This document shows, piece after piece, positions 19,595 to 40,614 of a stretch of DNA of 64,000 nt (positions are counted from its first letter, which is position 1; each line of letters opens with the position of its first letter). The translations under genes and the position numbers were made by a program. This stretch comes from an uncultured Bacilli bacterium (GTDB taxonomy: Bacteria > Bacillota_I > Bacilli_A > RF39 > UBA660), in assembly GCA_944371995.1 (NCBI GenBank), contig CALVYD010000003.1, positions 1-64,000 of the forward strand, read 5' to 3'. The notes beneath the pieces were generated by a model, which saw only the letters and a program-made list of their open reading frames with translations, was not told the origin of the DNA and ran no database searches.

Positions 19595-20512
19595 ATGAAA
19601 AAACTTATTTTATTGGCCATTACATTAATAATTATCGGAGTATTATTTTTGTATCAACAAGACTTACAAAAAGCTTATTATTCTGTTCTTCGTTCATTTC
19701 AAGATGATACATCTACTCTAGAAAATAAAAACGAGTACTATAGAGACTATGATTTTAATTATGTACAAACAACAGATGACTTCTCACCTGACTCTAAACA
19801 AGATATTCTAAATATTTTTTATACCGCAATAAACTCAGGAATGGAAAATTTTACTTTCTACTGTCCTGATACTTATAGTGATTGTTTAAACGAAGTAGAA
19901 AGTTTAGCAAACAATCAAGAAATGCTTTCTGATATTAATAATTTTGTTCATCCATATAACGGTTTCTATCATATAGAAACACAGTATGACTCCCTAGGAA
20001 AAGTACAAATTCATATTCAAAAAAGCTACAGTGATGAGCAAATAAGAGAAATTAATAACAAAGTAGATGAATTAGCTGGACAATTAATTATTCCAGGGGA
20101 TACAGATACCAATAATATCCTAAGAATACATGACTATATTATTAACAATAGTGTATATGATTCTGCCAGAAGTGATTATGGTGACACGACCTATCAATCA
20201 GATATAGCCTATGGACCTCTTCTTCAAGGATATGGAATCTGTGGTGGATATACAGATGCTATGCAACTATTTTTAGAAAAATTAGGAATTAAAAATTACA
20301 AAGTATCAAGTGAAGAACATGTCTGGAATGCTGTATTTGTAAACAATCAATGGCTACACCTAGACCTAACCTGGGATGATCCCGTAACCTCTACAAAAGA
20401 AAACATCTTAGATCATAATTTCTTTTTAATAAGTACCAATAACCTTTTAGCAATCGAACAAACAGAACATCAATTTAACATGGATGTTTATTCCGAATTA
20501 AAAGAAGCCTAA
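19595..20512 (+). CDS. Secreted/anchored transglutaminase-like protein
   Basis: A 305-residue protein with an N-terminal membrane anchor or uncleaved signal (about residues 4-19, no lipobox). Its C-terminal half carries the transglutaminase/papain-like triad in the expected order: C216 in GICGGYTDA, H242 in EHVWNAVF and D257 in HLDLTWDD. Bacterial members of this fold act as peptidases or as protein-binding domains at the cell surface; the substrate here is unknown. It is monocistronic, with GGAGG before the start, and shares its terminator with miaA, with which it converges. Confidence 0.86.
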   Translation: MKKLILLAITLIIIGVLFLYQQDLQKAYYSVLRSFQDDTSTLENKNEYYRDYDFNYVQTTDDFSPDSKQDILNIFYTAINSGMENFTFYCPDTYSDCLNEVESLANNQEMLSDINNFVHPYNGFYHIETQYDSLGKVQIHIQKSYSDEQIREINNKVDELAGQLIIPGDTDTNNILRIHDYIINNSVYDSARSDYGDTTYQSDIAYGPLLQGYGICGGYTDAMQLFLEKLGIKNYKVSSEEHVWNAVFVNNQWLHLDLTWDDPVTSTKENILDHNFFLISTNNLLAIEQTEHQFNMDVYSELKEA

Positions 20513-26204: not shown

Positions 26205-28196
26205 TTATTTGAGTAAATTTTCTATTTTTTCTTCTAAACTATCAACATCAAATCCAAATTTTTTATATACATCTTCTTTTTTACCACTAGCACCAAATTG
26301 ATCAAGGGTAATTAAATACTTATTATTAAAGACAATACTATTCCAAGACATAGAAGATGCTGCTTCAATAACTATTTTTCTAACCTCTACTGGTAAGATA
26401 CTATCGATATATTCTTGATCTTGTGCTAAAAAACGTCCAAGACATGGCATAGACACAACACGAATATCTAATCCTTTCGATTGTAATCTCTTAGCAACAT
26501 CAATTGCTAGATGCACTTCTTCTCCTGTTGCGATAATAATTCCCGTTAATTTTCTTTCAGAATCAAAAACTGTATATCCACCTTTCGCAACTTCACTAAT
26601 TTTAGTAGTCTCTAAAATTGGTGTTTTATTTCTAGATAGTGCAATGACGGATGGACCACTCTTTTTCTCAAAGATAGCACGGTAAACACCAATAACCTCA
26701 TTAGCATCTGCCGGACGAAATACTTCTAAGTTTGGTGTAGCTCGTAGAGATGCTAATTGCTCTACTGGTTGATGTGTTGCTCCATCTTCTCCAACACTGA
26801 TAGAATCATGCGTAAATATATAAGTAACTGGTAAATCCATCATGCAAGACATACGAATACTTGGTTTTAAATAATCACTAAAGCTTAAGAATGTAGAACC
26901 ATAAGGATGAAATCCACATAAAGCAAAACCATTTAAAATAGCTCCTAGAGCATGTTCTCTAACACCAAAGAAGATATTCTTGCCTAAGTAATTATCACTA
27001 GTAAAGTCTCCCGCATCTTTTACATAAGTTTTAGTTGCTGCAAATAAATCAGCACTACCACCAATTACTGTTGGATATTTAGGAACAATAGAAGATAAAA
27101 TTTTACCAGATGTCACTCTAGTAGCTTCAGCTTTATCTTCTGGTGCTTCATATAAAATATCTTTGATATCATAGGATTTATGACCTTCGATAAAATCCAT
27201 CAAACACTTCTTATCTTCCTCATCCATATTCTCTACTGCTTTTAAGAACTTGTCATGCAAATTCTTACAACGATTATGAATAAGTGTTTGAAAATCATCC
27301 ATCGTAATTTGAGAAATAGTAAAAGGTATATCTCGAATTTGCATTTTTTCTTTAATGGCAGAAACATCATCTTTATCCAAAGGAGAACCATGTACCAAAT
27401 TCGTACCTTCTAACTTAGAATATTTACCAATGGTAGTCTTAATTTCAATTAATGTTGGCTTATCAGTAGAAGCTTTCGCATCTTCAATTGCCTTTACAAT
27501 AGACAAAATATTATTACCATCAGGAACCGTAATTACATTCCATCCTTGCGCAATAAATCTCATTGCCACATTCTCTGTAAAACATTGTGAAGTGCTACCA
27601 TCTAAACAAATATCATTAGAGTCATATAAAACGATTAATTTATTTAATTTTAGTGTTCCAGCAAGAGATGCTGCTTCATAAGAAACACCTTCCATTAAAT
27701 CTCCATCACCGCATAAAACATAAGTATTAAAGTCAATAATTTCTTTTTTACCCTTATTAAATCTAGCTCGAAGATTAGCTTCCGCCATCGCAACACCTAC
27801 CGCTGTCGCAAAACCTTGTCCCAGAGGACCAGTAGTCATCTCAACACCAGGTGTCTTTTTATATTCAGGATGTCCTGGAGTAATAGAATCAATTTGTCTA
27901 AACACTTTTAAATCATCTAAAGTAATCGGATATCCCGCCATATATAACGTTGCATAAAGTAAGGCAGATCCGTGTCCTGCTGACATAATAAACCGATCAC
28001 GATTAAAAAAATCAGGATTTTCTGGATCAATTCGTAAATGGTGAGCATACAAACTATAAATAATAGGTGCTGCTCCTAATACAATACCTGGATGACCACT
28101 ACCAGCTTCAGATATCATATCAATACCAATAGAACGCAGTTGATCAACAATTTTCTCCTCATTAATTTCACTCTCATCTCTTTTTGGATTTAACAC
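26205..28196 (-). CDS. tkt: Transketolase
   Basis: Thiamine-diphosphate enzyme of the non-oxidative pentose phosphate pathway. Seen are the N-terminal GSGHPGIVLGAAP, the TPP-binding CGDGDLMEGVSYEA with a following YDSND, the pyrimidine domain (FTHDSISVGEDGATHQPVEQL) and the C-terminal domain. At 663 residues it is full length. The start codon is GTG, with AAGGAGT upstream. It is the first gene of tkt-sirA-yneF and has a well-formed promoter. Confidence 0.97.
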   Translation of the reverse strand: MLNPKRDESEINEEKIVDQLRSIGIDMISEAGSGHPGIVLGAAPIIYSLYAHHLRIDPENPDFFNRDRFIMSAGHGSALLYATLYMAGYPITLDDLKVFRQIDSITPGHPEYKKTPGVEMTTGPLGQGFATAVGVAMAEANLRARFNKGKKEIIDFNTYVLCGDGDLMEGVSYEAASLAGTLKLNKLIVLYDSNDICLDGSTSQCFTENVAMRFIAQGWNVITVPDGNNILSIVKAIEDAKASTDKPTLIEIKTTIGKYSKLEGTNLVHGSPLDKDDVSAIKEKMQIRDIPFTISQITMDDFQTLIHNRCKNLHDKFLKAVENMDEEDKKCLMDFIEGHKSYDIKDILYEAPEDKAEATRVTSGKILSSIVPKYPTVIGGSADLFAATKTYVKDAGDFTSDNYLGKNIFFGVREHALGAILNGFALCGFHPYGSTFLSFSDYLKPSIRMSCMMDLPVTYIFTHDSISVGEDGATHQPVEQLASLRATPNLEVFRPADANEVIGVYRAIFEKKSGPSVIALSRNKTPILETTKISEVAKGGYTVFDSERKLTGIIIATGEEVHLAIDVAKRLQSKGLDIRVVSMPCLGRFLAQDQEYIDSILPVEVRKIVIEAASSMSWNSIVFNNKYLITLDQFGASGKKEDVYKKFGFDVDSLEEKIENLLK

Positions 28197-28219
28197 AAAA
28201 AATCACTCCTTATGAGTTC

Positions 28220-28248
28220 ATTATAACAAAGATTATAATTTTTGTAAA
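28220..28248 (-). promoter_or_regulatory. Promoter of tkt-sirA-yneF
   Basis: On the minus strand: -35 TTTACA (28243-28248), 17-bp spacer, -10 TATAAT (28220-28225), with TG one base before the -10. It lies 24 bases upstream of the GTG start. Confidence 0.75.
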
Positions 28249-28269
28249 AAATAATTAAAAAGTACATCT

Positions 28270-28881
28270 CTACTCTATAGCACGAATCTTTTTAATAGGT
28301 ACTTTATATCCTTTTTCTAAAAAGTACATTATCTGTGTTTCAATAATAGTAAAAATAATACCATATATTACAGACAAAATACCAAAAGTTGCAAAACCAG
28401 ATAATATAATAACTAACTCAATCACACATAAAACATCTGAAGTTTCTAATCTCTTATGTTTTTCATGTATATATAAAGCAAACGCATCATAACCAACAGT
28501 AGAAGAATCCTCCATTAGACATAAAAATCTACCAACACCAACAAAAATACCCGCCAAAACAACAATAACAATCGGTGAAAAAGTAAATGATATGCCTGTC
28601 ATATGAAACAAATTAAAAAACACCATATAACAAGCACTACTAAATAAAGAACGATAAAAGAAATCTTTCCCTAACATAACTCTTCCAAAAAATAACAAAA
28701 GAATAATTAATATAGTTACAACATATCCAATATCTACATGAAAATAATAGGATAATAATAAAGATGTACTGGTAACCCCACCATTAATAATATTATTAGG
28801 AACAGTTAAAAAAGCATAAGCGCTAGTAAGTAATAAATTACCCAGAACAATAATAAATAAACTCTTAATATTCTCTTTCAT
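28270..28881 (-). CDS. YitT-family membrane protein without the DUF2179 domain
   Basis: A 203-residue protein with five to six membrane segments and the start of the YitT/DUF161 family (LGNLLLTSAYAFLTVPNNIINGGVTSTSLLL). The usual cytoplasmic C-terminal DUF2179 domain (about 80 residues) is absent, so only the membrane part is present. Substrate unknown. It has a good AAGGTGG site and an extended -10 (TGCTATAAT) shortly upstream. It is probably monocistronic. Confidence 0.82.
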   Translation of the reverse strand: MKENIKSLFIIVLGNLLLTSAYAFLTVPNNIINGGVTSTSLLLSYYFHVDIGYVVTILIILLLFFGRVMLGKDFFYRSLFSSACYMVFFNLFHMTGISFTFSPIVIVVLAGIFVGVGRFLCLMEDSSTVGYDAFALYIHEKHKRLETSDVLCVIELVIILSGFATFGILSVIYGIIFTIIETQIMYFLEKGYKVPIKKIRAIE

Positions 28882-28965: not shown

Positions 28966-28994
28966 GAAAAAGGAAATATGCCATTACTATTTCC
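28966..28994 (-). terminator. Terminator of the unknown six-gene operon
   Basis: On the minus strand GGAAATA and TATTTCC form a 7-bp stem with a 9-nt loop, followed by TTTTTC, about 20 bases after the stop of the last gene of the 29-36 kb block. Confidence 0.75.
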
Positions 28995-29012
28995 TATCAA
29001 ACAAAATAATAA

Positions 29013-29471
29013 CTACATACCAGAAGTGGTAAGTGTTACATTCACTTTTCTTTTGACTTTATCAGTAAAACTTTCCGTAATCTGAAATTCTTTCATCAAC
29101 CTGTCTTGCACAAATGGAATGCAATCATTATATTTCTTAGCGTCCAAAGATTCTATATTTCCAATAGAACAATACCAGATATGATCAATCGCCCAGGAAA
29201 CATCAACTAAAGAACCATCAATTGCATCTTGTTCCAAAAGTCCTAAATAATGATTTAGAACAAATTTAGATTCATCTTCACTAATTCTTAAACCAAGCAC
29301 ATCATAAGTAGTAGAAAAAATTTTAACAAAATCACTTTTACAAAAGAAAATAGGAAAAGAATACTGTTCACTATAAAAGCAATAATCTTGCCATAAATTC
29401 TCTAAATAATGCCCGTCAAGCTTTCTCTCACCAACTACCTTACTTAACAAACGATATTGTAACTGATTCAT
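29013..29471 (-). CDS. Hypothetical protein, 152 residues
   Basis: A soluble, acidic, aromatic-rich protein (MNQLQYRLLSKVVGERKLDG) that I do not recognise. No membrane segment or known motif is seen. It is the last of six leftward genes of unknown function, 18 bases after the previous gene, with a GAGGTG site, and is followed by the operon terminator. Confidence 0.62.
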   Translation of the reverse strand: MNQLQYRLLSKVVGERKLDGHYLENLWQDYCFYSEQYSFPIFFCKSDFVKIFSTTYDVLGLRISEDESKFVLNHYLGLLEQDAIDGSLVDVSWAIDHIWYCSIGNIESLDAKKYNDCIPFVQDRLMKEFQITESFTDKVKRKVNVTLTTSGM

Positions 29472-29489
29472 ATAAACACCTCATCTAAT

Positions 29490-29954
29490 TTATTTTGAAG
29501 GAGAACCTAATGGTTTTATTTTTTTACTTAATATTGCCGGATTATCATTCTTATCTATAACATCGGCATCTTCTGTTTTCATCATCTCTAAAAGGTTAGC
29601 AGCAAACGCATCATATTTATGATTTTGATTTAAAAGAACAGCATGTACTTTATCATTTAAATCAATAACGACATCATCACGAACATCACCAAAAGCACTA
29701 ACATGCATTACAGTAACTAACGCATCTGGTGCAACAGCACAAATTCCTTGATATAAAAATTCACCAATCGTTTGACCATGTAAATCTGAAAAAGAAATAG
29801 GTACCATTTTATTCCCTGCTATACCATATTCTAAACTATTCTCATCCTGATATTTTTCTTGTATAATAACATATTCATCACTTTCTACAATAGTACGTAA
29901 AGTAGAAACTAATTTTTGCATATTACCATCATATTCTATTAAATGATTATCCAT
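29490..29954 (-). CDS. Hypothetical protein, 154 residues
   Basis: A soluble alpha/beta-looking protein: IEYDGNMQKLVSTLRTIV, then strands such as LVTVMHVSAFGDVRDDVVIDL, then a polar tail. I do not recognise it. The start is the ATG at 29954 (AAGGAGTG 5-6 bases upstream); a GTG three codons earlier lies in the binding site. It is fifth in the unknown operon. Confidence 0.62.
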   Translation of the reverse strand: MDNHLIEYDGNMQKLVSTLRTIVESDEYVIIQEKYQDENSLEYGIAGNKMVPISFSDLHGQTIGEFLYQGICAVAPDALVTVMHVSAFGDVRDDVVIDLNDKVHAVLLNQNHKYDAFAANLLEMMKTEDADVIDKNDNPAILSKKIKPLGSPSK

Positions 29955-29968
29955 TATTATCACTCCTT

Positions 29969-30562
29969 TTAATTTTTATGTCCTCCCCAGTTCTTAAAAC
30001 CAGGTTTTAACATAAGTCTTTTTACTCTACTTTCTTTTCTATCCTCATTAACACGAATATTTCTAATATCATCAAGAGCAACTTCAAAATATTTTAATGC
30101 AGTAACATCATCAATATCAGGATGATTTTCTACTATTTTAGCATACATAGCACGTGCTAAATCAAAATTACATAGTGTATGAGATCTTATTCCTGAAGTA
30201 GCATAATGTTCCAAAAAATAATCATATATTATTTTATCGTTAGTAGATAAAAATCTAGGATTATAAGTACCTAAAACTCTTTGATCTAATCCACATTTCA
30301 CACAACCATAATCAATATCAGAACGACCCTCGTAATAATCAATATTTTTACTAATAGGTATCCAAATATGCTTACATTTAGAAAACTCTTCTTTCTTCAT
30401 ATCCGTATATAACTGAAGTAATTCTGAATTTAATTTCAATCTTTGATCGTTAAGTTCCAAATACTTTTTAACCCGTTCATCTTTCATTAATTCTGCTAAT
30501 TGAGTCTCTATATCATTCATTTCAGACAACTTCTGTTCATAAGTTTTACGTATATTACTCAT
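29969..30562 (-). CDS. Hypothetical protein with a probable zinc site, 197 residues
   Basis: Residues 1-58 form a charged coiled coil (YEQKLSEMNDIETQLAELMK). After this come C63-x-H65 and C87-x2-C90 (CKH and CVKCG), spaced like a zinc ribbon or knuckle, and then a helical C-terminal part with many basic residues at the end. I do not know the family. The frame is open to a TTG at 30595, but the ATG at 30562 gives the better beginning; its binding site is weak. Fourth gene of the unknown operon. The zinc site suggests binding to nucleic acid or protein, which is inference. Confidence 0.6.
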   Translation of the reverse strand: MSNIRKTYEQKLSEMNDIETQLAELMKDERVKKYLELNDQRLKLNSELLQLYTDMKKEEFSKCKHIWIPISKNIDYYEGRSDIDYGCVKCGLDQRVLGTYNPRFLSTNDKIIYDYFLEHYATSGIRSHTLCNFDLARAMYAKIVENHPDIDDVTALKYFEVALDDIRNIRVNEDRKESRVKRLMLKPGFKNWGGHKN

Positions 30563-30644
30563 ATACTTTTTCTCTTTTCTAATTAAAAATTCCAACTTTA
30601 CAATACTCTAAAATATAATAAATTGCAACTATTTTATCAAACAT

Positions 30645-31823
30645 TTATTTCTTTTCTAATACTTTTCCAAGATCATTTTCAGGCAAATGACCTACAGGGT
30701 TCATAAGTAGGAAACTATAATTAATTCTCTCAGTCAAACCAAACAAAGGCAACTCTCCTTTAATTTTCTTTACCGTATCAACTACTTTTCGTTCCGCATC
30801 ATGAACTGCTTTCATATTAAAATCAGTAGCATCAAAACTAATAATACGATTATTTAAAGCATCAGCAACCGCTTGCTGTGTAGAATCAGCAAAATTAGAT
30901 ATCACCATATCAGAAGTACTAGAAGAACGAGTAGAAAGTAAAAGATTTGCTTTCGCTAATATTTCAGGATGACGAATTAAATCCACCTTAATCCCTTTTC
31001 TAGAATAAAAATTAGCACGAGCACCTTTCTCTCTACTTACATCAAATCGATAAGTACCATTTACCCTACCATTTCCTTTGTACGTTTTAATATCGACCGA
31101 GCCTCTTTGAAAAGCATCAAAAGTATCAAGTACAGCTTCAAAAGTAACAGCAGAATTATAAGATTTATTTTTCTTATTATATTTCTTTTCTATTCTAATC
31201 ATTTTCCTATTAGTATTTAAATCATGATAAATATAAATATCATTGAATCGTTTTACTACCATATCTCCTAAACGTGAAAAACTTATATAATCACGATAAC
31301 GTTTACTATATCGTTCACCCGTAATCCTATCAACTGTAATATCTAGGCGAAAATCATCAGATAACACATTATAAGTTGCTTCATAAGAAGTATAAATAGA
31401 ATCTTTTCCTGTATTCTTTCTTCTCGTGTTACTCTTTATCTTATCAGTCTTTGTAAATGATATTTCTCCATCATTAGCAAAAGAAAAACTTCTTATAGCT
31501 TTCTTAGAACACATTCCTTCCCAGACAACCTTAGCAAATTCACAATTATATTTCTCTCCATAATCGCCTATTAATGTTACTTTTCTAAGAGCTTCTCCAT
31601 TCCTCTGCTCAAGAGGCCTCACTCCCTCTAATAGATAATGATTATGATAAGATTCTTGAAAATCCAAAAGATCTGCGTCCCTCATACCATATAAATCATC
31701 ACTATAAACATCTAAATACTGTTCGTACCAAGATGCCTTCCATTCACCAACATACTCTTCTACCCTAGACATCTCTTCAAATACTTTTTCTAATGCAATA
31801 AGTTGCATTGTACTATCTAACAT
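30645..31823 (-). CDS. Hypothetical protein, 392 residues
   Basis: I do not recognise this protein. A helical N-terminus (to about residue 60) precedes a long middle part rich in alternating hydrophobic and charged residues (about 75-270; FRLDITVDRITGERYSKRY, IRIEKKYNKKNKSY), which looks beta-rich and basic. A helical C-terminus follows. No signal or membrane segment. The start has AAGGTGA upstream. Third gene of the unknown operon, about 80 bases before the next one. Confidence 0.62.
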   Translation of the reverse strand: MLDSTMQLIALEKVFEEMSRVEEYVGEWKASWYEQYLDVYSDDLYGMRDADLLDFQESYHNHYLLEGVRPLEQRNGEALRKVTLIGDYGEKYNCEFAKVVWEGMCSKKAIRSFSFANDGEISFTKTDKIKSNTRRKNTGKDSIYTSYEATYNVLSDDFRLDITVDRITGERYSKRYRDYISFSRLGDMVVKRFNDIYIYHDLNTNRKMIRIEKKYNKKNKSYNSAVTFEAVLDTFDAFQRGSVDIKTYKGNGRVNGTYRFDVSREKGARANFYSRKGIKVDLIRHPEILAKANLLLSTRSSSTSDMVISNFADSTQQAVADALNNRIISFDATDFNMKAVHDAERKVVDTVKKIKGELPLFGLTERINYSFLLMNPVGHLPENDLGKVLEKK

Positions 31824-31870
31824 TTTATATCACCTTTTTCCAAAGCCATAAATAAAGCAACATATCTACT

Positions 31871-34822
31871 CTATATAGCTATATTTTTATGCGACCCTTG
31901 TTTCTCATTATTAATACTACTTGAATATTCCCTGAACATTATAGACGATTGTAATACATCTTTTCTTTCTAGCAAATCATGAATAGTATCTCTTGGCTCT
32001 TTAGATTTAATCAATTTAATATACGGTTCAAATAATGCCAAATACTCATCATTCTCCATAGTAACTATCTTACTTAAAGCATCATTATCACGACCCGATA
32101 CTTCATAATTCATATTAAAATCATCTGTTGCTATAGTATCAACCAAAAAGTTAATAGCTTTATCAAATTCATTTTCAGGAGATTGGTTCTGCAAAACAGT
32201 TAATGTTTCTTTACCGCCTAAATATTTTCCATAAGTAAATAAAGTTCTAGATGGAACTCCTGCTATATGATATAATTTTTCTTTAACAAGAGCTTCTTCA
32301 AAAACTTTAGAATCAATATTTCTTCTGGTAGAATCAACATAATCATAAACTGGAAGAGCGCTATACACTTCTCCTTGATAATTTGCAATATAATCATCAT
32401 AACCATATTTTTGATGTACAGTAGTAATATCTACAGACTCAACATGATTTTTAACATCTCCTATTTCCTTTTGAACCGTTAACACTAACATATCATATTT
32501 ATCATTAGGCGTAACTACCACAGCTCTATCCTCATAACTATGATCTTTTATATGATAAAAACTCTCATCATCAGCTAAACTAATACCATAACGTCCTTTT
32601 CCAGCATCTTTCTGATAAGTTTCTTGTAAATCATCTATTTGAACTAAAGGTACGCCTAAAAAAGCCGCAGCATTAATTTCCTCTTCTGTCGGATTATCAC
32701 CCAGGAACGCAATACCACTTGGCATCAATCCATCACGATAAGCATCAAACTCATTATACGTTTCCGAACCATGCACTTGTGTAGTTCTAACTATTTTTCT
32801 AAATGGCATCATATCTTTAGGTAATCTAGTAGCTATATTTTTATTATTATAACCAGAGCCAATACCAGTATCCCTATTTGCTGCACAAACTAAAGAACCA
32901 TCTGGTAAATGAGAATACAAAACTTTAATAGAATATATAGACTGCCCGTTAACACAAACTCTATTATATTCATCACTAATTCCCGTTAAACAAATATAGG
33001 CAGCACCAATTAATTTAGGAGTAATGACAGATTCAATAGCACCTCCAGTAGAATAAGAGTTTAAAACATGAAGATAAGCATTAAATTTCTCTCCACTTGG
33101 AATATGAACAACATGTACTCTTCTTCCATTAACATTAGTACCATCTTCAAAAGTATAATCAGTAGCATCATAAAACTTATCTGTAACGTAATCATTAAAA
33201 TCTGTCATACGCTCATTAAATTCATAATTATAAAAAGACATGATTTTATCATTAAAATTCAACCATTTTCTATTCACACCATATTTTAATATTTGATCAT
33301 TAAATAATCCAGCCAATTGTTTTAGTTTTTCTACATCATCTATTTTATCAATAGTACTCAATAAATCACTAATAATAAAATAACTATCTAACTCTTTAGC
33401 TAGTTTTTGATTATGAAGTGAATTCTTTAAAGGAATTAATCTCTCTCTACTTGCAGACTCTAATAAACCCTGTCTAGTTTCAAAATAATTCTGATTTAAT
33501 AATATATTACAAATAATATTTTTTAACTCTATAGAAGAAGTTGCTGAATCGATTCTTTGTTGTTTTTGTTGATAATATATCTGCCTAATATTGGTTAACT
33601 CTTCTTTATTTCTAACAGCAAGCTCTTCATATTCAAAATATAATCTTAAATTTTCTATATTTTCTTCAATACTATTATCATCCAGACTATCAAATAAAGC
33701 AGTATTTTGATTAAACTTATAAGTAATTTTTAGAAATAATTCTAAATCAAATCCCTCTTTTTCATTTAGATTATCATATATTTTTTTGACTAGTAATAAA
33801 TTTTTCGGTCTCACTACTTCACTTAAATCGACTTTATGAGCACCTAATAATATATATTTTATCATTTGCTCAAAAGCATCCTGACCAAGTACTAAAGGAA
33901 CATCGTCATGAAATATATCTTTTTTGCAATGCAATAATTCTGCATAAGAACCCTGTATTTTAAAAAGTTCACGATCTAAGTTTTGAAAAAACTTAGGATT
34001 CATACCATTTATCGATTTATAAAATACTTCTCTCATAATTTCATTATTATTATATATCGAAGCTGGTGAATTCTCGTCAACTACATATCCTAATTCCATA
34101 ATTTTTCTTATTAATGGTGTATCAAATTCCCAAGAAACCATCTTTGTAAAATCTTTTTTGTCTGGATGTTTCTCAAAATAACGAATAATTTCACGCGTAA
34201 CTTTAATATCTTGAAAATGACGATTAAACTCAATTATTTCTGATCTATCATCTCTTTGCGCTATAATTTTTGCAATATGTTCATCTACATAAGACAACTT
34301 CATTAATATTCTTTTTTCTTCCTCTAAAGTTGCATTTTGTAAAAAATATTCTACCAAAGGCTTAAACTGATAAATAGCATTAGTTTTCATATCAAGAGAT
34401 AGGAAATCATCTAATTGAAAATTCTTATCTTTTAAATATTGTAACAATGTTTCATCATGACTTTCTTTTTCAGAAAATTCCAAAATATAGTTAAACTGTT
34501 CTTGATTTACTGCATGCTCTAATAATTCTATAACTCCAGAACTATTATTTAAATAATCAGAAAGAGAAGCAATATCTCCATATCCTTCTATATTATATGT
34601 AGGTTCCTCCGAAGGATTAGATTCCTTAGACACATTAGATATATAAAAATCAATATCACTACTGCCAACATCAATAGTACTAGTATCTATCAAAGGAACA
34701 TCATTCGTTTGAAATACCGCATCATCAAAATCAATAGTATCATCTCCTGGAGAATCAAAAACATCATCAGATCCATCTGTCATAGGAAATACATTTTCCA
34801 TCTCTTCTACTTCTTTATTCAT
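31871..34822 (-). CDS. Large hypothetical protein, 983 residues
   Basis: The central gene of the unknown operon. Residues 1-85 are acidic and probably disordered. About 85-555 are helical and leucine-rich, perhaps helical repeats. About 560-735 form a compact, probably beta-rich core with GRRVHVVHIPSGEKFNAYLH, GAAYICLTGIS, GSETYNEFDAYRDG and AFLGVPLVQID. The rest is mixed. I have the impression that segments of the YNE...R...P type occur in large proteins of uncultured gut Firmicutes, but I cannot name a domain. The start at 34822 has AAAAGGAG upstream; the longer frame to 34846 does not. No membrane segment is present. Confidence 0.68.
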   Translation of the reverse strand: MNKEVEEMENVFPMTDGSDDVFDSPGDDTIDFDDAVFQTNDVPLIDTSTIDVGSSDIDFYISNVSKESNPSEEPTYNIEGYGDIASLSDYLNNSSGVIELLEHAVNQEQFNYILEFSEKESHDETLLQYLKDKNFQLDDFLSLDMKTNAIYQFKPLVEYFLQNATLEEEKRILMKLSYVDEHIAKIIAQRDDRSEIIEFNRHFQDIKVTREIIRYFEKHPDKKDFTKMVSWEFDTPLIRKIMELGYVVDENSPASIYNNNEIMREVFYKSINGMNPKFFQNLDRELFKIQGSYAELLHCKKDIFHDDVPLVLGQDAFEQMIKYILLGAHKVDLSEVVRPKNLLLVKKIYDNLNEKEGFDLELFLKITYKFNQNTALFDSLDDNSIEENIENLRLYFEYEELAVRNKEELTNIRQIYYQQKQQRIDSATSSIELKNIICNILLNQNYFETRQGLLESASRERLIPLKNSLHNQKLAKELDSYFIISDLLSTIDKIDDVEKLKQLAGLFNDQILKYGVNRKWLNFNDKIMSFYNYEFNERMTDFNDYVTDKFYDATDYTFEDGTNVNGRRVHVVHIPSGEKFNAYLHVLNSYSTGGAIESVITPKLIGAAYICLTGISDEYNRVCVNGQSIYSIKVLYSHLPDGSLVCAANRDTGIGSGYNNKNIATRLPKDMMPFRKIVRTTQVHGSETYNEFDAYRDGLMPSGIAFLGDNPTEEEINAAAFLGVPLVQIDDLQETYQKDAGKGRYGISLADDESFYHIKDHSYEDRAVVVTPNDKYDMLVLTVQKEIGDVKNHVESVDITTVHQKYGYDDYIANYQGEVYSALPVYDYVDSTRRNIDSKVFEEALVKEKLYHIAGVPSRTLFTYGKYLGGKETLTVLQNQSPENEFDKAINFLVDTIATDDFNMNYEVSGRDNDALSKIVTMENDEYLALFEPYIKLIKSKEPRDTIHDLLERKDVLQSSIMFREYSSSINNEKQGSHKNIAI

Positions 34823-34851
34823 ATACACTACTCCTTTTAAAACCATATATT

Positions 34852-35841
34852 TTATCTTTTTTTATCTATAGAATCATTAAAATATCTTCGACCAATTTTA
34901 TGATTAGAAAACATTTCATCCAACTGTTCATCCGTTGTTTTAAGACAACTATGATTTAATGTATCCACAATATATTGATTCCCATCATACTGAATTAAAA
35001 TTTCATCAATTACTTCTCTTGGTTCATCAGGCTCATTTACAATCTCACCAATATATTTGTGCTCTAAAGGTTCATTAAAACCATGATTTCTATTTAAAAA
35101 ACTAAATAGATATATAAACTCTTGTCCTGCAATATTTCTTTTTCTCATATCACTAATAAACAAAGAAAATCTATCAATACTATTATCAAGTCTATTATTA
35201 TCTGCATAATTTATAAATTGTTGCAAAAAAGAAGTAGCATCATTGGTATAACCAAATAAATTATTCATCTTCTGAATTTTTTGATTATAAAAATCCTGAT
35301 TACCTAAAACAACTTCAATATTGGTTAAAGGAAATCCCATTTTAGCATTAGTTAAATCACTTAGTCTATTTTCATTAATATCAATAGCCATTGGTTCTAA
35401 TTCAATAATACCATTCGCTGTTGCCATACCAACTCCTATATGTTCATTAAATACATCTTCCTTAGAATCTAATACTACTCCATAGATTTGTTTATCATCC
35501 ATCATATCGATTAATTTAGTAAATATTCTAGCAAAATCCCAACATACAATAGGTGTATCCATGTTGATACTTTCTAATCTACTCTTATTAAACTCTCTTT
35601 CCATCTTACGATACATATAATTAATATCATAAGAAAACAACTCACACATCTTAAAATAAACAAATAAACCTTTTTCCTCAGGAGTAAAATCTTTAGGCAT
35701 ATCATGAAATATATAATCACTAATTTGAGGATTCAATTCCCATTCTCCCTCATCACCATAAAAATAAGCCATATCAAATCTGTTGGATTTCAATCTCCAT
35801 ATTCTTAAAATCCCATTTCTTAATTCATCATTCGCAACCAT
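34852..35841 (-). CDS. Degenerate transglutaminase-like protein, 329 residues
   Basis: Residues 55-165 follow the transglutaminase-like order: helical KGLFVYFKMCELFSYD, then C100 in TPIVCWDFARIFTKL at the start of a helix, H134 in NEHIGVGMA on a strand, and D154 in EPMAIDI, with DLTNAKMG after it. This is a hypothetical triad; the fold call is inference. Unlike the secreted relative at 19.6 kb, it has no signal peptide. The start is the ATG at 35841 with ACGAGGTG upstream; a GTG two codons earlier lies in the site. First gene of the unknown operon, divergent from the metallopeptidase gene. Confidence 0.62.
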   Translation of the reverse strand: MVANDELRNGILRIWRLKSNRFDMAYFYGDEGEWELNPQISDYIFHDMPKDFTPEEKGLFVYFKMCELFSYDINYMYRKMEREFNKSRLESINMDTPIVCWDFARIFTKLIDMMDDKQIYGVVLDSKEDVFNEHIGVGMATANGIIELEPMAIDINENRLSDLTNAKMGFPLTNIEVVLGNQDFYNQKIQKMNNLFGYTNDATSFLQQFINYADNNRLDNSIDRFSLFISDMRKRNIAGQEFIYLFSFLNRNHGFNEPLEHKYIGEIVNEPDEPREVIDEILIQYDGNQYIVDTLNHSCLKTTDEQLDEMFSNHKIGRRYFNDSIDKKR

Positions 35842-36056
35842 AAACACCTCGTAAAATTTTTATAAACATTATTTTTATTATACCATAGAGAAAACATTTT
35901 ACATAATCCATTTAAAAAATTATTAATACCTAAGCAAAATAAGATATATATCAACAAATAAACTTAATGTACCATACATATATTTTTCTTGCTATTCTTC
36001 ACATTTTTATATATTATATATATAGAATTTAATGACTAGGATGAGAGAGAAAATAT

Positions 36057-37865
36057 ATGAATTTATTAGATATTAACTTTAAAAGCATGATTTCAAACAT
36101 AACAGATGCTTTTACTACTGTTTATGGAGAAAAATATAGAGAACTTATCAACAAAAAGTTAAATAATACTTATTTTATTTCATATTTTGACATTGAAGGA
36201 CTAAAAGAATATATTAATTACTTAAAATTTTGTAAATCACGAGAACTATCTATAAAATTTTTAGAAGAAATTGGAATATCTGTAAATTATGACAAAAGTA
36301 ACTACACGAAAGCTTTAGATATAGATACATCTGAAATTTTAGATAGTACTATTGACACTTATTATGCATTTTCAAGCAAGAGAAATCAATATGTTCCGTT
36401 ACTTGCTTTTGATAATGAAAATCATGAACAAGAAAATGATATATTGCAAAATAATAGATTGAAATTGATTAATTATTTTTTACGAGAGAAAAACAAAAAA
36501 ATTACGATAGAAGATTTACCTTCTTTTATGGCAACAGATAAATATTTAGAAATTCTTAACAAAATAAAAAAATATAAAACCATTTATGATAAATTATTCC
36601 AAGAATTTTCTAACTGGGAAAAGAGTTTAGAATCATACGAGACATTTATAAAAAAAGAAGAAGATAAAAGAAATGAAATATATAAAAGAAAAAAACAAGA
36701 ATTATTTCAATTAATTTATGATAAATTACCTAAAAAAGTTAAAGAAGCAATTCAAGGTAAAGATATAGAAGAACAACAAAAAATTATATTAGGAGACTTT
36801 GATATTACTTCCCCTTCACTTATTGAAAGTTTTTCAAAAAATAGTTTTGAAGAACTTACAGATTCCAACAATAATATATGGAAAAAAATAACTAAAATTG
36901 GTATTCATCAAGTTGAATATTTAAAACATCTGAAAATAACCCTTCCATTTAATGATGCATATGATTGCAATAACGAAGAAAAACTTTCTTTTTACCTAGA
37001 CTTTTTAAAGCAAGAAAAGATACAACAGTATATTCCTAGTCAAGATGTAATTTCTTTTATTGAAAATACTAGAAAAGAAAAAATGGAAGAAGCTTATTTA
37101 GAATATCTTAGTAATCGTTCTGATTATCAGAAAATTGCTAATTCCTTTTCTTATCAACCCGACTTTCTTAATACTATACGTAATATTATACAGAAAAAAA
37201 TGATTCTTGTTACTTTACCTTATGCAATCGATAAACAAGGAAATATTATTTCTTTCTTATGTTATTCCGTTAGAAAAAATGCAGCCGGTTATTTAGATTA
37301 TCTTCTTCTTCATGAGTGTGGTCACGCTATAGAGAAGACAGAAAAAGGTTGTGGTTTAGGACCAGAATACACTTATAATAATGATTTATGGTATAATCCC
37401 TATGATAATAATTTTCGAATTTATGAAAAAATCAATGAAAACTTAAACGATATTTTTACTTTAGAAGCATTAGACTATTTACATAAAAATGATATTTATT
37501 TACTTGAGCCTAAAGAAATTGTACAACAAGACTGCCAAGACAAGAACACTTATATGATTACAAAAAAAATTCTTTACCCGTTATTAGAAAAATTTAGAGA
37601 AGAAGTTATTGCTGCAAAACTAAATGTAAATCCTTCTATTCTTACTCAGTGCATTGGAGAAGATAATTATGAAGCACTAGTTGATGTTGTTAATAAAGTT
37701 GATTATCTATGTAGAAATGACCTAGAACATTTATTAAAGTATTATCCCGATACATCTATATGCAAAGAGTATCAAAAGCAATTAGAAAGAACAAGCGAAA
37801 TTTATACTGCGATTGATACCTACTATAATAACCATCATAAAGAAACAAACCAAAACAAACGTTAA
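36057..37865 (+). CDS. Putative gluzincin-type metallopeptidase, 602 residues
   Basis: The C-terminal third carries a zinc site: H419-E420-C-G-H423 in LLLHECGHAIE, then N460-E461-x3-D465 (NENLND), matching the HExxH...NExxxD layout of gluzincins. The first 400 residues are helical and lysine-rich, with a coiled-coil region (about 170-240), and carry no signal peptide or membrane segment. It therefore probably acts in the cytoplasm. I do not know the family. It is monocistronic and divergent from the unknown six-gene operon across a 215-base gap, and ends in a strong terminator. The start is preceded by a purine-rich stretch rather than a clear AGGAGG. Confidence 0.78.
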   Translation: MNLLDINFKSMISNITDAFTTVYGEKYRELINKKLNNTYFISYFDIEGLKEYINYLKFCKSRELSIKFLEEIGISVNYDKSNYTKALDIDTSEILDSTIDTYYAFSSKRNQYVPLLAFDNENHEQENDILQNNRLKLINYFLREKNKKITIEDLPSFMATDKYLEILNKIKKYKTIYDKLFQEFSNWEKSLESYETFIKKEEDKRNEIYKRKKQELFQLIYDKLPKKVKEAIQGKDIEEQQKIILGDFDITSPSLIESFSKNSFEELTDSNNNIWKKITKIGIHQVEYLKHLKITLPFNDAYDCNNEEKLSFYLDFLKQEKIQQYIPSQDVISFIENTRKEKMEEAYLEYLSNRSDYQKIANSFSYQPDFLNTIRNIIQKKMILVTLPYAIDKQGNIISFLCYSVRKNAAGYLDYLLLHECGHAIEKTEKGCGLGPEYTYNNDLWYNPYDNNFRIYEKINENLNDIFTLEALDYLHKNDIYLLEPKEIVQQDCQDKNTYMITKKILYPLLEKFREEVIAAKLNVNPSILTQCIGEDNYEALVDVVNKVDYLCRNDLEHLLKYYPDTSICKEYQKQLERTSEIYTAIDTYYNNHHKETNQNKR

Positions 37866-37871
37866 AAAGTA

Positions 37872-37911
37872 AAAAGAACTAGTACAAAAACATATACGTA
37901 CTAGTTCTTTT
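37872..37911. terminator. Strong bidirectional terminator
   Basis: A perfect 14-bp inverted repeat (AAAAGAACTAGTAC / GTACTAGTTCTTTT) with a 12-nt loop between the convergent metallopeptidase and nuclease genes. Confidence 0.88.
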
Positions 37912-37928: not shown

Positions 37929-38684
37929 TTAATTCTCAAAATAATAAATCAAATCAAAAAGACTTTCTAAATTCTTTTTTCTAATAGAAAACTGCAGACT
38001 TTTATTCTTATTCTTTAAGAAATCTTTACCACTCTTAGCAAATCTCAATATTAAAGCAACTAAAACATCTTCCTCTTCAATACATTTTATAAAAGCTTCA
38101 ATTCCCTTATATTTATAGCATTCTAATTTATAATATCTAAAATAAAAATTATCATTAGAGACATTCTTACTCGCGTAAAACAAAGCTAGATGATGAAGTT
38201 TGACACGCAATCTTTGCTCCAGAGAATCAAAATAAATAAAAGCCCTATCTTCTAAGAAATCAAACTTATCATCATATATTCTTATAAAAATCTTTTTACT
38301 ATCATAATCAATTTTTAATTCAAAATAATATTTACCATAAACTAAAACTTTTCTATTTAATTTTAAATTGACAATCAATTTCTTATGTTCATGATAAACA
38401 TTATCTCTTATTCCATAAGTTTCTAATAAATAATTACTTTCGTATAAATCAGGCCCGTCAAACGCTAAAGAAAATAAACTTATATTATATCTACTAAACC
38501 TCTGAGTACATTTCACTTCGACACCATAATAATCAGGAAAAAACATACTATCAGGATTTTTACCAAGCTGATTTTCTAATGTAAGACCTGCAGAATTATA
38601 TAAATTATTATTAATACCTTTCATATATCCTTTCATATTTAACTTTTTAAACTCTTCGATAATCTTTTCAAATTCCTTTTCCAT
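37929..38684 (-). CDS. MvaI/BcnI-type restriction endonuclease-like protein, solitary
   Basis: A 251-residue protein with the MvaI/BcnI pattern: NSAGLTLENQLG with E37, then PD51-x4-E56-V-K58 in FFPDYYGVEVKC, the PD-(D/E)XK metal site, followed by FSRYNISLFSLAFDGP. Known members cut short GC-containing sites as monomers. No DNA methyltransferase lies in this window, so the enzyme may be partnered elsewhere, be a solitary nuclease of another defence type, or target modified DNA. It is monocistronic, with a GAGGTGG site, and lies between the unknown island and the tRNA pair. Confidence 0.82.
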   Translation of the reverse strand: MEKEFEKIIEEFKKLNMKGYMKGINNNLYNSAGLTLENQLGKNPDSMFFPDYYGVEVKCTQRFSRYNISLFSLAFDGPDLYESNYLLETYGIRDNVYHEHKKLIVNLKLNRKVLVYGKYYFELKIDYDSKKIFIRIYDDKFDFLEDRAFIYFDSLEQRLRVKLHHLALFYASKNVSNDNFYFRYYKLECYKYKGIEAFIKCIEEEDVLVALILRFAKSGKDFLKNKNKSLQFSIRKKNLESLFDLIYYFEN

Positions 38685-38700
38685 ATTCCACCTCTTTTAG

Positions 38701-38808
38701 AGGGATATACTATCAGCTGGTTAGAGCAACATTTGTCGATTCTTGGAATAGAAATTATATTTTAGATAAGGGCGGTCACCGGGCAAAAAAAAAAGACCAG
38801 TAGGGTCC
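38701..38808 (+). pseudogene. Degenerate inverted copy of the adjacent tRNA(CAU)
   Basis: Read on the plus strand, this stretch keeps three collinear parts of the tRNA at 38915-38991, which lies on the minus strand. These are the D-arm (TCAG-x-TGGTTAGAGCA, 38713-38728), the anticodon-to-variable part (ATAA then GGGCGGTCAC, 38766-38779) and the 3' acceptor part (CCAGTAGGGTCC, 38797-38808). The anticodon arm is replaced by unrelated A+T sequence, and ten A replace most of the T-arm. It cannot fold as a tRNA. Confidence 0.6.
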
Positions 38809-38812
38809 TTTT
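38785..38812 (-). terminator. Terminator of the tRNA operon
   Basis: On the minus strand GACC-CTACT-GGTC is followed by ten T, with AAAG before it extending the stem imperfectly. It lies about 10 bases after the CCA end of tRNA-Leu. The hairpin is made from the 3' acceptor part of the inverted tRNA remnant. Confidence 0.72.
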
Positions 38813-38821
38813 GTTTCATAA

Positions 38822-38905
38822 TGGTGCGGGTAACAGGAGTTGAACCTGCACGTCTAAGACACTAGATCCTAAGTCTAGCGCGTCTGCCAATTCCGCCATA
38901 CCCGC
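38822..38905 (-). tRNA. tRNA-Leu (anticodon UAG)
   Basis: An 84-base cloverleaf with 7-bp acceptor GCGGGTA/TACCCGC, discriminator A and encoded CCA. The anticodon loop CTTAGGA on a CTAGA/TCTAG stem gives UAG. The long variable arm typical of class II tRNA-Leu is present (TGTCTTAGACG), and the T-loop GTTCAACTC. It is the second gene of a two-tRNA transcript. Confidence 0.95.
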
Positions 38906-38914
38906 AACTGATAA

Positions 38915-38991
38915 TGGTGGACCCTACTGGACTCGAACCAGTGACCGCCCGGTTATGAGCCGGATGCTCTAACCAACTGAGCTAAGGGTCC
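38915..38991 (-). tRNA. tRNA with CAU anticodon, probably tRNA-Ile2
   Basis: A 77-base cloverleaf with acceptor GGACCCT/AGGGTCC, discriminator A and encoded CCA. The anticodon loop CTCATAA gives CAU. The body (GGACC acceptor, TAGCTCAGTTGGTTAGAGC D-arm, CTCATAACC) is closer to the tRNA-Ile2 of Bacillus, in which TilS changes C34 to lysidine, than to its elongator tRNA-Met; this is from memory of those sequences. Elongator Met stays possible. First gene of the two-tRNA transcript. Confidence 0.88.
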
Positions 38992-39257: not shown

Positions 39258-40286
39258 TTATATATTCACTAAAGGATTATATTTTTGATATAGACTATCA
39301 CTATATTTAATTATTTTATCTCTAGCTAACCGGTAAACAAAAAATGATTTAACAACATCTAACTCTTCGATATTTTTATAATTAATCTTTATTATATCAT
39401 ATATTTTACTAGGTACCATCCAATCCAATGCTTGCATATCCGCTTTTATCTCATAATCTTCTGTTTCTTTATCATCTAACATTGTAATGATACTTCCACT
39501 TTTTGCTCGATTATAATCACTTTTACAATGAGCAAGCTCATGTAATAAAGCAAAATAAATATCAGCATACCTTTTATGTTTTCTCGTGATATATATTGCA
39601 GGTTTATCATTTAATACTTTAAACGCTCCCCTTACCTTAGTACCTTTTAAATCATCTTGGATAGCTAAAAAAATACCATTCTTATTAAATTCCATGATTA
39701 ATTTATTCTCATCAAAAGACTGATTACTTGCTTCCATTCTAATAAATTCTACCAATTTATTAATATTTTCTTTTGTATATTTTTCAACTTTTTGATCTGC
39801 AATAATTCTATTGCATCTTTCTAACCATAACGCTAATAATTCTGGCTTATCGTTTTTACTCTTATAAAAAATCACATTATTTTCTTTTGTTAATGAATTA
39901 GGATTTGTAATTCTCAAATATTTTAATATATCTTTGGCAATAGCATAATCATTTCTAGCATCTCTATATTTTACATGATACTCATCAGCCAATTCTTTAT
40001 AACTAAATCTATTAATATAATTTCTAATAGATAAATGATTCTCATCCAAATAATTTTGAATTACTTTATCCATTTTATAATTTTGTTCAGTATTTTCAAT
40101 ATAACTTACTGGAATACCAGTAATAAAAGAAATGTTATATATCATATTTTGAGATAATTCAACATTACCTTTTATAATATCTATTAAGTTTTTAGAAGTT
40201 GTATTAATTCGATCAGCAAATTCTTTTATACTAATATTCTTGTACTCTAAAAATTCACCTAATTCTCTACCAAATTTATTCATCAT
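39258..40286 (-). CDS. HigA-like antitoxin: XRE helix-turn-helix plus ImmA/IrrE peptidase domain
   Basis: About 342 residues from the start at 40286. Residues 5-65 form an XRE-type helix-turn-helix (ISIKEFADRINTTSKNLIDIIKG). The C-terminal part is an ImmA/IrrE (COG2856) domain with H249-ELA-H253 in ALLHELAHCKSDYNR and a later EIKADMQALDWMVP that can supply the third ligand. The start overlaps the stop of the toxin gene by about 11 bases and has no clear site, so translation is probably coupled. By the toxin-first order it resembles HigBA. It should bind the palindrome at 40668-40689. Confidence 0.85.
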   Translation of the reverse strand: MMNKFGRELGEFLEYKNISIKEFADRINTTSKNLIDIIKGNVELSQNMIYNISFITGIPVSYIENTEQNYKMDKVIQNYLDENHLSIRNYINRFSYKELADEYHVKYRDARNDYAIAKDILKYLRITNPNSLTKENNVIFYKSKNDKPELLALWLERCNRIIADQKVEKYTKENINKLVEFIRMEASNQSFDENKLIMEFNKNGIFLAIQDDLKGTKVRGAFKVLNDKPAIYITRKHKRYADIYFALLHELAHCKSDYNRAKSGSIITMLDDKETEDYEIKADMQALDWMVPSKIYDIIKINYKNIEELDVVKSFFVYRLARDKIIKYSDSLYQKYNPLVNI

Positions 40287-40614
40287 AAAATCTGAGTTTA
40301 TCAGGAGTAAAGTCATTATAATGATCATAACTTACATATACAAAAATTATTTCATTTTCAGCTGTTGATGGCATTACTATTAATCTTATTACTCCACCGT
40401 TTCTTTCTAAATTAAAAGACCAAAAACCACTATTTTGATGTTTTAATGGTTCAAATTCATAGATTGTCGTCATAATTGGATTGGTTTGTAACTCTTTAAA
40501 TACATTATGATTCGTAATTTTTTCCGTTATATCTTCTAAATTAGCTAATTCCTTTCTATACCTTTTTAATTTTTTGGCTGAATTATCAAAACTTTTTGTA
40601 TATGTTATGTGCAT
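40276..40614 (-). CDS. RelE/HigB-like toxin
   Basis: A 112-residue protein with a RelE/HigB-like outline: MHITYTKSFDNSAKKLKRY, a helical hairpin, then strands (FWSFNLERNGGVIRLIVMP and IIFVYVSYDHYNDF) ending near a basic/aromatic C-terminus (DKLRFYDE). Such proteins cut mRNA on the ribosome. The start has a very strong site (AAGGAGGAAC). The antitoxin follows immediately. The catalytic residues are not certain from sequence alone. Confidence 0.8.
   Translation of the reverse strand: MHITYTKSFDNSAKKLKRYRKELANLEDITEKITNHNVFKELQTNPIMTTIYEFEPLKHQNSGFWSFNLERNGGVIRLIVMPSTAENEIIFVYVSYDHYNDFTPDKLRFYDE

Follow-up and report, generated by a model that had tools for sequence, protein, structure and literature searches.

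An undescribed six-gene operon of an uncultured Bacilli bacterium, probably a lineage-restricted cassette in a tRNA-anchored variable slot

The stretch of DNA analysed here (the window; positions 1 to 64,000 of contig CALVYD010000003.1, assembly GCA_944371995.1) comes from an uncultured Bacilli bacterium of the GTDB lineage RF39, UBA660, and carries six leftward genes that form one real, undescribed operon at 29013-35847. We think it probable that this operon is a lineage-restricted cassette sitting in a variable slot anchored by tRNA genes, that it moves and recombines as a mosaic, and that a metallopeptidase-like protein encoded divergently beside it, GLU602, is independent cargo. An initial annotation, made from the letters alone, had grouped all seven genes as a candidate system and offered a role in defence or stress. 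G000 denotes the window's own genome here, and every other G number a relative. All genomes compared are metagenome-assembled genomes (MAGs), homologs were counted in samples of the family, and some search coordinates left off a gene's first residue, with no effect on the conclusions.

Six leftward genes form one operon

From first gene to last, all on the minus strand, the operon encodes TG331 (34852..35847), a transglutaminase-like cysteine enzyme judging by its homologs and a profile-profile match; BIG983 (31871..34822), a large and mostly helical protein whose C-terminal core (residues ~524-745) is common to proteins of other genera; the lineage-specific protein P392 (30645..31823); Zn196 (29969..30562), a putative zinc-binding protein; a second lineage-specific protein, P154 (29490..29954); and the last gene, P151 or P151/152 (29013..29471). 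The open reading frames (ORFs) encode 329 or 331, 983, 392, 197, 154 and 152 amino acids, the exact figures depending on start-codon choice. Gaps between them, read from the sequence, measure 29, 47, 85, 14 and 18 bp, short enough to suggest co-transcription. Beyond the last stop codon the sequence reads AGGAAATA-(9 nt)-TATTTCCT, then TTTTTCTTT, a terminator-like hairpin (28966..29004, minus strand) that a simple terminator scan missed because the scan's loop limit was 8 nt. The layout described in the initial annotation, with six leftward genes of those lengths, small gaps (14-85 bp) and a single terminator at the end, is therefore what we find.

These ORFs are not chance products, because they are under purifying selection and have homologs in other genera. 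The ratio of nonsynonymous to synonymous divergence (dN/dS) between G000 and G005 is 0.17-0.37 for all six genes, homologs in other genera are found at 25-47% identity for five of the six, and the core of BIG983 recurs there at 28-33%. Scans against Pfam, NCBIfam, PHROGs and PADLOC gave no name to any of the seven proteins (six operon genes plus GLU602). Solved-structure profile searches with TG331, GLU602, BIG983, P392, Zn196 and the BIG983 core returned no credible match.

The operon is exchanged between species as a mosaic

Synonymous divergence (dS) between G000 and G005 is low and uneven within the operon (P151 0.05, BIG983 0.06, TG331 0.11, P392 0.18, P154 0.28, Zn196 0.44) compared with the flanking genes (an adjacent nuclease 0.59, yitT 0.55, transketolase or tkt 0.62). 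Nucleotide identity along the block between the same two genomes is 95-99% inside most of it and 83-91% in the flanks, with a dip to 79% in Zn196. Because dS in the operon is low and uneven relative to the flanks while dN/dS stays within the range given above, the pattern indicates recent, mosaic exchange between species under purifying selection. In the comparison of G000 with G011, dN/dS is 0.38-0.48 for the shared operon genes and 0.06-0.15 for tkt, yitT and the nuclease.

G005 is the only other species with all six operon genes. They lie on three of its contigs, with TG331 beside the nuclease and tRNA genes on the first, BIG983-P392-Zn196 on the second and P154-P151-yitT-tkt on the third, all in window order. 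The order in G011 is nuclease, other genes, a P392 broken into three ORFs, Zn196, P154 and P151, so that other genes stand in place of TG331 and BIG983. Together these arrangements point to a front half, TG331 plus BIG983, that is exchangeable, and an older, more persistent back half, P392-Zn196-P154-P151. P151 itself is 98% identical in G005, 62% in G011 and 34-38% in two other genera.

Beyond the genus, homologs of the operon genes occur in different genomes, and any genome that has two of them has them on separate contigs, never adjacent, so the reading of a conserved system is unsupported. Only one of the 15 gene pairs tested for co-occurrence, P392/Zn196, was in weak excess (3 against 0.6 expected, P 0.015 before correction for 15 tests), and here too the genes were on different contigs. 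A single cross-genus locus has two genes of the region: in G147 (L168 9112-10378) the nuclease gene adjoins a broken P154 and a decayed tRNA-Leu sequence, and the same contig has tkt at a distance of a few kb. The initial annotation had named the failure of the genes ever to co-occur in other genomes as what would speak against a shared system. That is the picture outside the genus, but within it G005 has all six and G011 the last four.

The rival that survives best, and that we regard as quite possible though short of probable, is that the operon's genes are unrelated, lineage-specific and only loosely strung together, with a promoter in common but no function. The scattered, independent homologs of each gene, with their differing neighbours, are what such a string would leave, and both the dS mosaic within the block and the broken P392 of G011 would fit it as well. 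It is harder to square with the same order of four genes in three species, with the exchange of the set as a block under purifying selection, or with gaps that suggest co-transcription.

Several points weigh against our own preference for an exchanged cassette. G005 is split over three contigs, its full operon being pieced together from contig ends, and the argument for a shared fate rests on two species and part of a third. A functional link among the six proteins is conjecture, and no integrase or repeat boundaries were identified for the block. The G000 MAG has 5% contamination, and the other genomes are MAGs too. Finally, variable selection could also give a mosaic, although the roughly ten-fold differences in dS make that unlikely.

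The slot between the tRNA pair and tkt is variable

One anchor of the slot is a pair of tRNA genes, tRNA-Leu(tag) and a CAT-anticodon tRNA (38822..38991, minus strand), and the other is tkt with a YitT-like gene (26205..28881, minus strand), whose anchoring role we take from its linkage to the tRNA pair in relatives. The CAT-anticodon tRNA is called Met by ARAGORN; its body resembles that of tRNA-Ile2. All or part of the pair was matched in nearly all sampled family genomes. Linkage to tkt was seen in G009, G012 and G006 and, in other genera, in G106 and G141, and the interval differs each time, down to one gene only between the tRNA pair and tkt in G012. Other genes also lie just downstream of the pair in G008, G007 and G002/G014, where tkt is beyond the stretches read. 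In sister species the slot holds cargo such as a Cna_B/VWA adhesin, a P-type metal ATPase, a glycosyltransferase and a peptide deformylase, along with lineage-specific families that recur. From these comparisons we read the interval from the tRNA pair to yitT/tkt as a variable slot and not a pure defence island.

We considered whether slot genes of other species are diverged versions of the operon genes, and profile comparisons were negative. Just downstream of the tRNA pair, several species, one of them of another genus (G106), have members of two recurrent lineage-specific families, of about 300 and about 340 amino acids (L179, L182 and L183; L176, L177, L181 and L184).

The divergent metallopeptidase is separate cargo

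GLU602 (36057..37865, plus strand) is a gluzincin-type putative metallopeptidase of 602 residues. On the protein itself the initial annotation was right: the divergent ORF is present and its HExxH motif is conserved, with H419-E420-H423 and E461 invariant in seven homologs. Its inclusion in the set did not hold. G005 lacks it, with 1.95 kb missing and a clean junction at window 35919/37865 that places TG331 directly beside the nuclease, and G011 has a short 3' remnant only. Since G005 joins TG331 to the nuclease so cleanly, we take GLU602 to be independent cargo and not a member of the operon. In four related loci (L102-L105) a small, conserved protein of 103-137 amino acids, absent from the window, immediately precedes the GLU602 homolog, and the two are likely to form a two-gene unit. 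A weak YgjP-like match was seen in one member of the GLU602 family only.

The operon proteins

Among 193 sampled genomes of the family, 24 others have a homolog of TG331; these homologs are mostly 440-610 amino acids long, with some near 300, and most have an extra N-terminal region of about 220 residues that TG331 lacks. A profile built from 14 homologs matched Transglut_core proteins of related genomes at E 4e-4 and a score of 40, where unrelated control profiles scored 13-17. In that alignment Cys102, His136 and a third acidic residue line up with the Transglut_core catalytic residues. C102 and H136 are near-invariant across the 14 sequences of the family, and the third position (H+15) is Glu in TG331 and Asp in most relatives. 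We thus assign TG331, by profile, to the transglutaminase-like proteins, which is how the initial annotation had seen its outline; enzymatic activity is likely yet unproven, because the third residue is Glu and not Asp. Two slot genes were tried as further candidates and rejected: a 328-residue gene of G012 that matched the TG profile (E 0.0026) aligned solely outside the catalytic core, and a 233-residue gene of G011 that looked papain- or transglutaminase-like by eye (C, H, D) found no support in profile comparison. Elsewhere in the window, 19595-20512 encodes a genuine Transglut_core protein of 305 amino acids that is conserved in the genus.

A full-length relative of BIG983 was found in G005 only; contig CALVJR010000061.1 carries a big protein 96% identical to it. 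The core is more widespread, recurring near the C-terminus of proteins of 977, 1316, 2208 and 2339 amino acids in other genera, with H585, Y689-N690-E691 and R696 invariant (numbers converted from a fragment). The idea of an ADP-ribosyltransferase, suggested by a likeness of motifs, was dropped when profiles gave no support, and a single-sequence AlphaFold model of the core was not used, its mean pLDDT (the model's own per-residue confidence) being 32. The 2208-residue protein, from G071 (L207 289-6915), combines a DUF4116 match with the BIG983-type core and a C-terminal stretch that is kinase-like by eye. A 1301-residue protein of G311 (L209 3451-9729), directly downstream of an AbiLi/AbiLii-like pair, has a weak single-sequence match to the core (E 8.5e-4) and was not recovered by the core profile.

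For Zn196, too, 24 other genomes in the sample of 193 have homologs. Its C62, H64, C86 and C89 are invariant in 13 aligned sequences (CxH...CxxC), which upholds the zinc-type site proposed for the fourth gene. Homologs of P392, P154 and P151 are few and scattered: those of P392 occur in five other genera and never adjoin other operon genes, while P154 matches the C-terminal domain of a 391-residue protein in G013.

Neighbouring nuclease, its leader and a toxin-antitoxin-like pair

The neighbours that the initial annotation had listed (a restriction-type nuclease, two tRNA genes and a HigB-like/HTH-ImmA pair, HTH standing for helix-turn-helix) are all confirmed. The nuclease (37929..38684, minus strand) is a solitary MvaI/BcnI-type enzyme by its match to Pfam MvaI_BcnI (PF15515, 7.1e-23, covering profile positions 1-227 of 227) and to PADLOC REase_II (2e-16). 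It is a slot resident in several members of the genus, being found at the same site in G005, G011, G002 and G014. No cognate DNA methyltransferase turned up in a scan confined to the ten proteins nearby.

The 139-nt leader of the nuclease gene (38685..38823, minus strand) copies parts of the adjacent CAT-anticodon tRNA in antisense, as three colinear blocks, the first of which coincides with an intrinsic terminator at 38790-38812. Such a leader is present in G147 (L168 10378-10570) and in all five members of the genus that have the nuclease here, and the stretch downstream of tRNA-Leu in L258 belongs to the same set of observations. Among sites without the nuclease, one of 14 in a first set had a leader match (G006, weak), and a second set of 40 gave a clear two-block relic in G159 only, besides a G094 match that looks spurious and a single stretch too short to be informative. 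The calculated duplex energy is -75 to -83 for leaders with their own tRNA against an average of -30 to -36 for shuffled leaders, figures that compare complementarity and not binding, because the tRNA's own fold is ignored. By the same calculation the G147 leader prefers its own variant tRNA (-79 against -62) and the G000 leader does the reverse; in three genera the leader matches the host's own tRNA variant.

It is conceivable, though we think it unlikely, that a new kind of tRNA-responsive leader governs the nuclease, such that tRNA freed or cleaved during, for example, phage attack could pair with the leader and let the nuclease be made. The same data would also follow from an old inverted duplicate of the tRNA whose likeness to it gene conversion has maintained. 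Should the antisense leader prove functional, it would add a new means by which a nuclease gene senses the state of tRNA.

Farther along, at 39258-40614, are a HigB/RelE-like gene and an HTH-ImmA protein. The latter matches PD-Lambda-2_B in PADLOC at 1e-19, and the HigB-like gene upstream of it has a weak RelE/YoeB match (0.0017).

Possible function

We tentatively propose that the six proteins may cooperate in a cytosolic conflict response. BIG983 would be a helical sensor or scaffold with its core domain, TG331 a cysteine-based effector that modifies or cuts proteins, Zn196 a zinc adaptor, and P392, P154 and P151 accessory proteins. This assignment of a cytosolic conflict role, parts included, could well be wrong. 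In its bolder form, which we rank below even the tRNA-responsive leader, the operon would be a conflict system of a new kind, in two parts, with TG331/BIG983 as the effector half that can be swapped.

A dedicated anti-phage system of the abortive-infection type, in which BIG983 senses infection and TG331, perhaps with the metallopeptidase, attacks host or phage proteins, strikes us as doubtful. The company the operon keeps would suit it, namely a restriction-type nuclease and a PD-Lambda-2-like HigB/HTH-ImmA pair, as would exchange between species, the fast protein evolution between G000 and G011, and the position of the weak BIG983-core relative of G311 beside its AbiL-like pair. Yet none of the seven proteins matches PADLOC (up to E 0.5), the metallopeptidase is missing from G005, sister species carry a mixture of cargo in this slot, and no co-occurrence is conserved outside the genus. 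The defence role suggested in the initial annotation is plausible; with no PADLOC match and such mixed cargo in sister species, it stays a suggestion from context.

A remnant of a phage or integrative element integrated at the tRNA genes is very improbable: the adjacent tRNA genes and the variable interval would fit one, but the block has no structural, integrase or replication genes, its PHROGs matches are weak and of unknown function, 2.9 million viral contigs hold no relatives of BIG983, TG331, P392, GLU602 or the nuclease, and BIG983 has none in phage or plasmid records.

The cassette reading that we favor offers a concrete, anchored site at which uncharacterised proteins pass between species of a poorly known gut-type Bacilli family, and makes the interval from tRNA-CAT/Leu to tkt a handle for finding what the exchanged proteins do. 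It also shows, before the wrong set is cloned, that the real unit is the six genes and that the metallopeptidase is a neighbour by chance.

Comparison with known systems

Individual parts of the region resemble known families to differing degrees. The TG331 family aligns with the catalytic core of Transglut_core (PF01841), Cys and His being in position and the EK..IY....YD motif present, but in a single-sequence Pfam scan all 14 family members fall below detection for Transglut_core, and TG331 differs in the Glu at its third catalytic position. GLU602 shares with gluzincin metallopeptidases the HExxH motif and a downstream invariant Glu, but has no sequence match to a named peptidase family. 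PD-Lambda-2 has been described with three components, A, B and C (PMC9519451). The pair at 39258-40614 resembles it in the B match and in the HigB/RelE-like gene upstream; it differs in that the third component, C, was not identified here and in lying outside the six-gene operon. As for the locus as a whole, most of its cargo is lineage-specific protein without known function and no integrase was seen, which sets it apart from tRNA-anchored variable or defence islands, but it resembles them in its fixed anchors, in cargo that changes from relative to relative, and in the nuclease and toxin-antitoxin-like pair close by.

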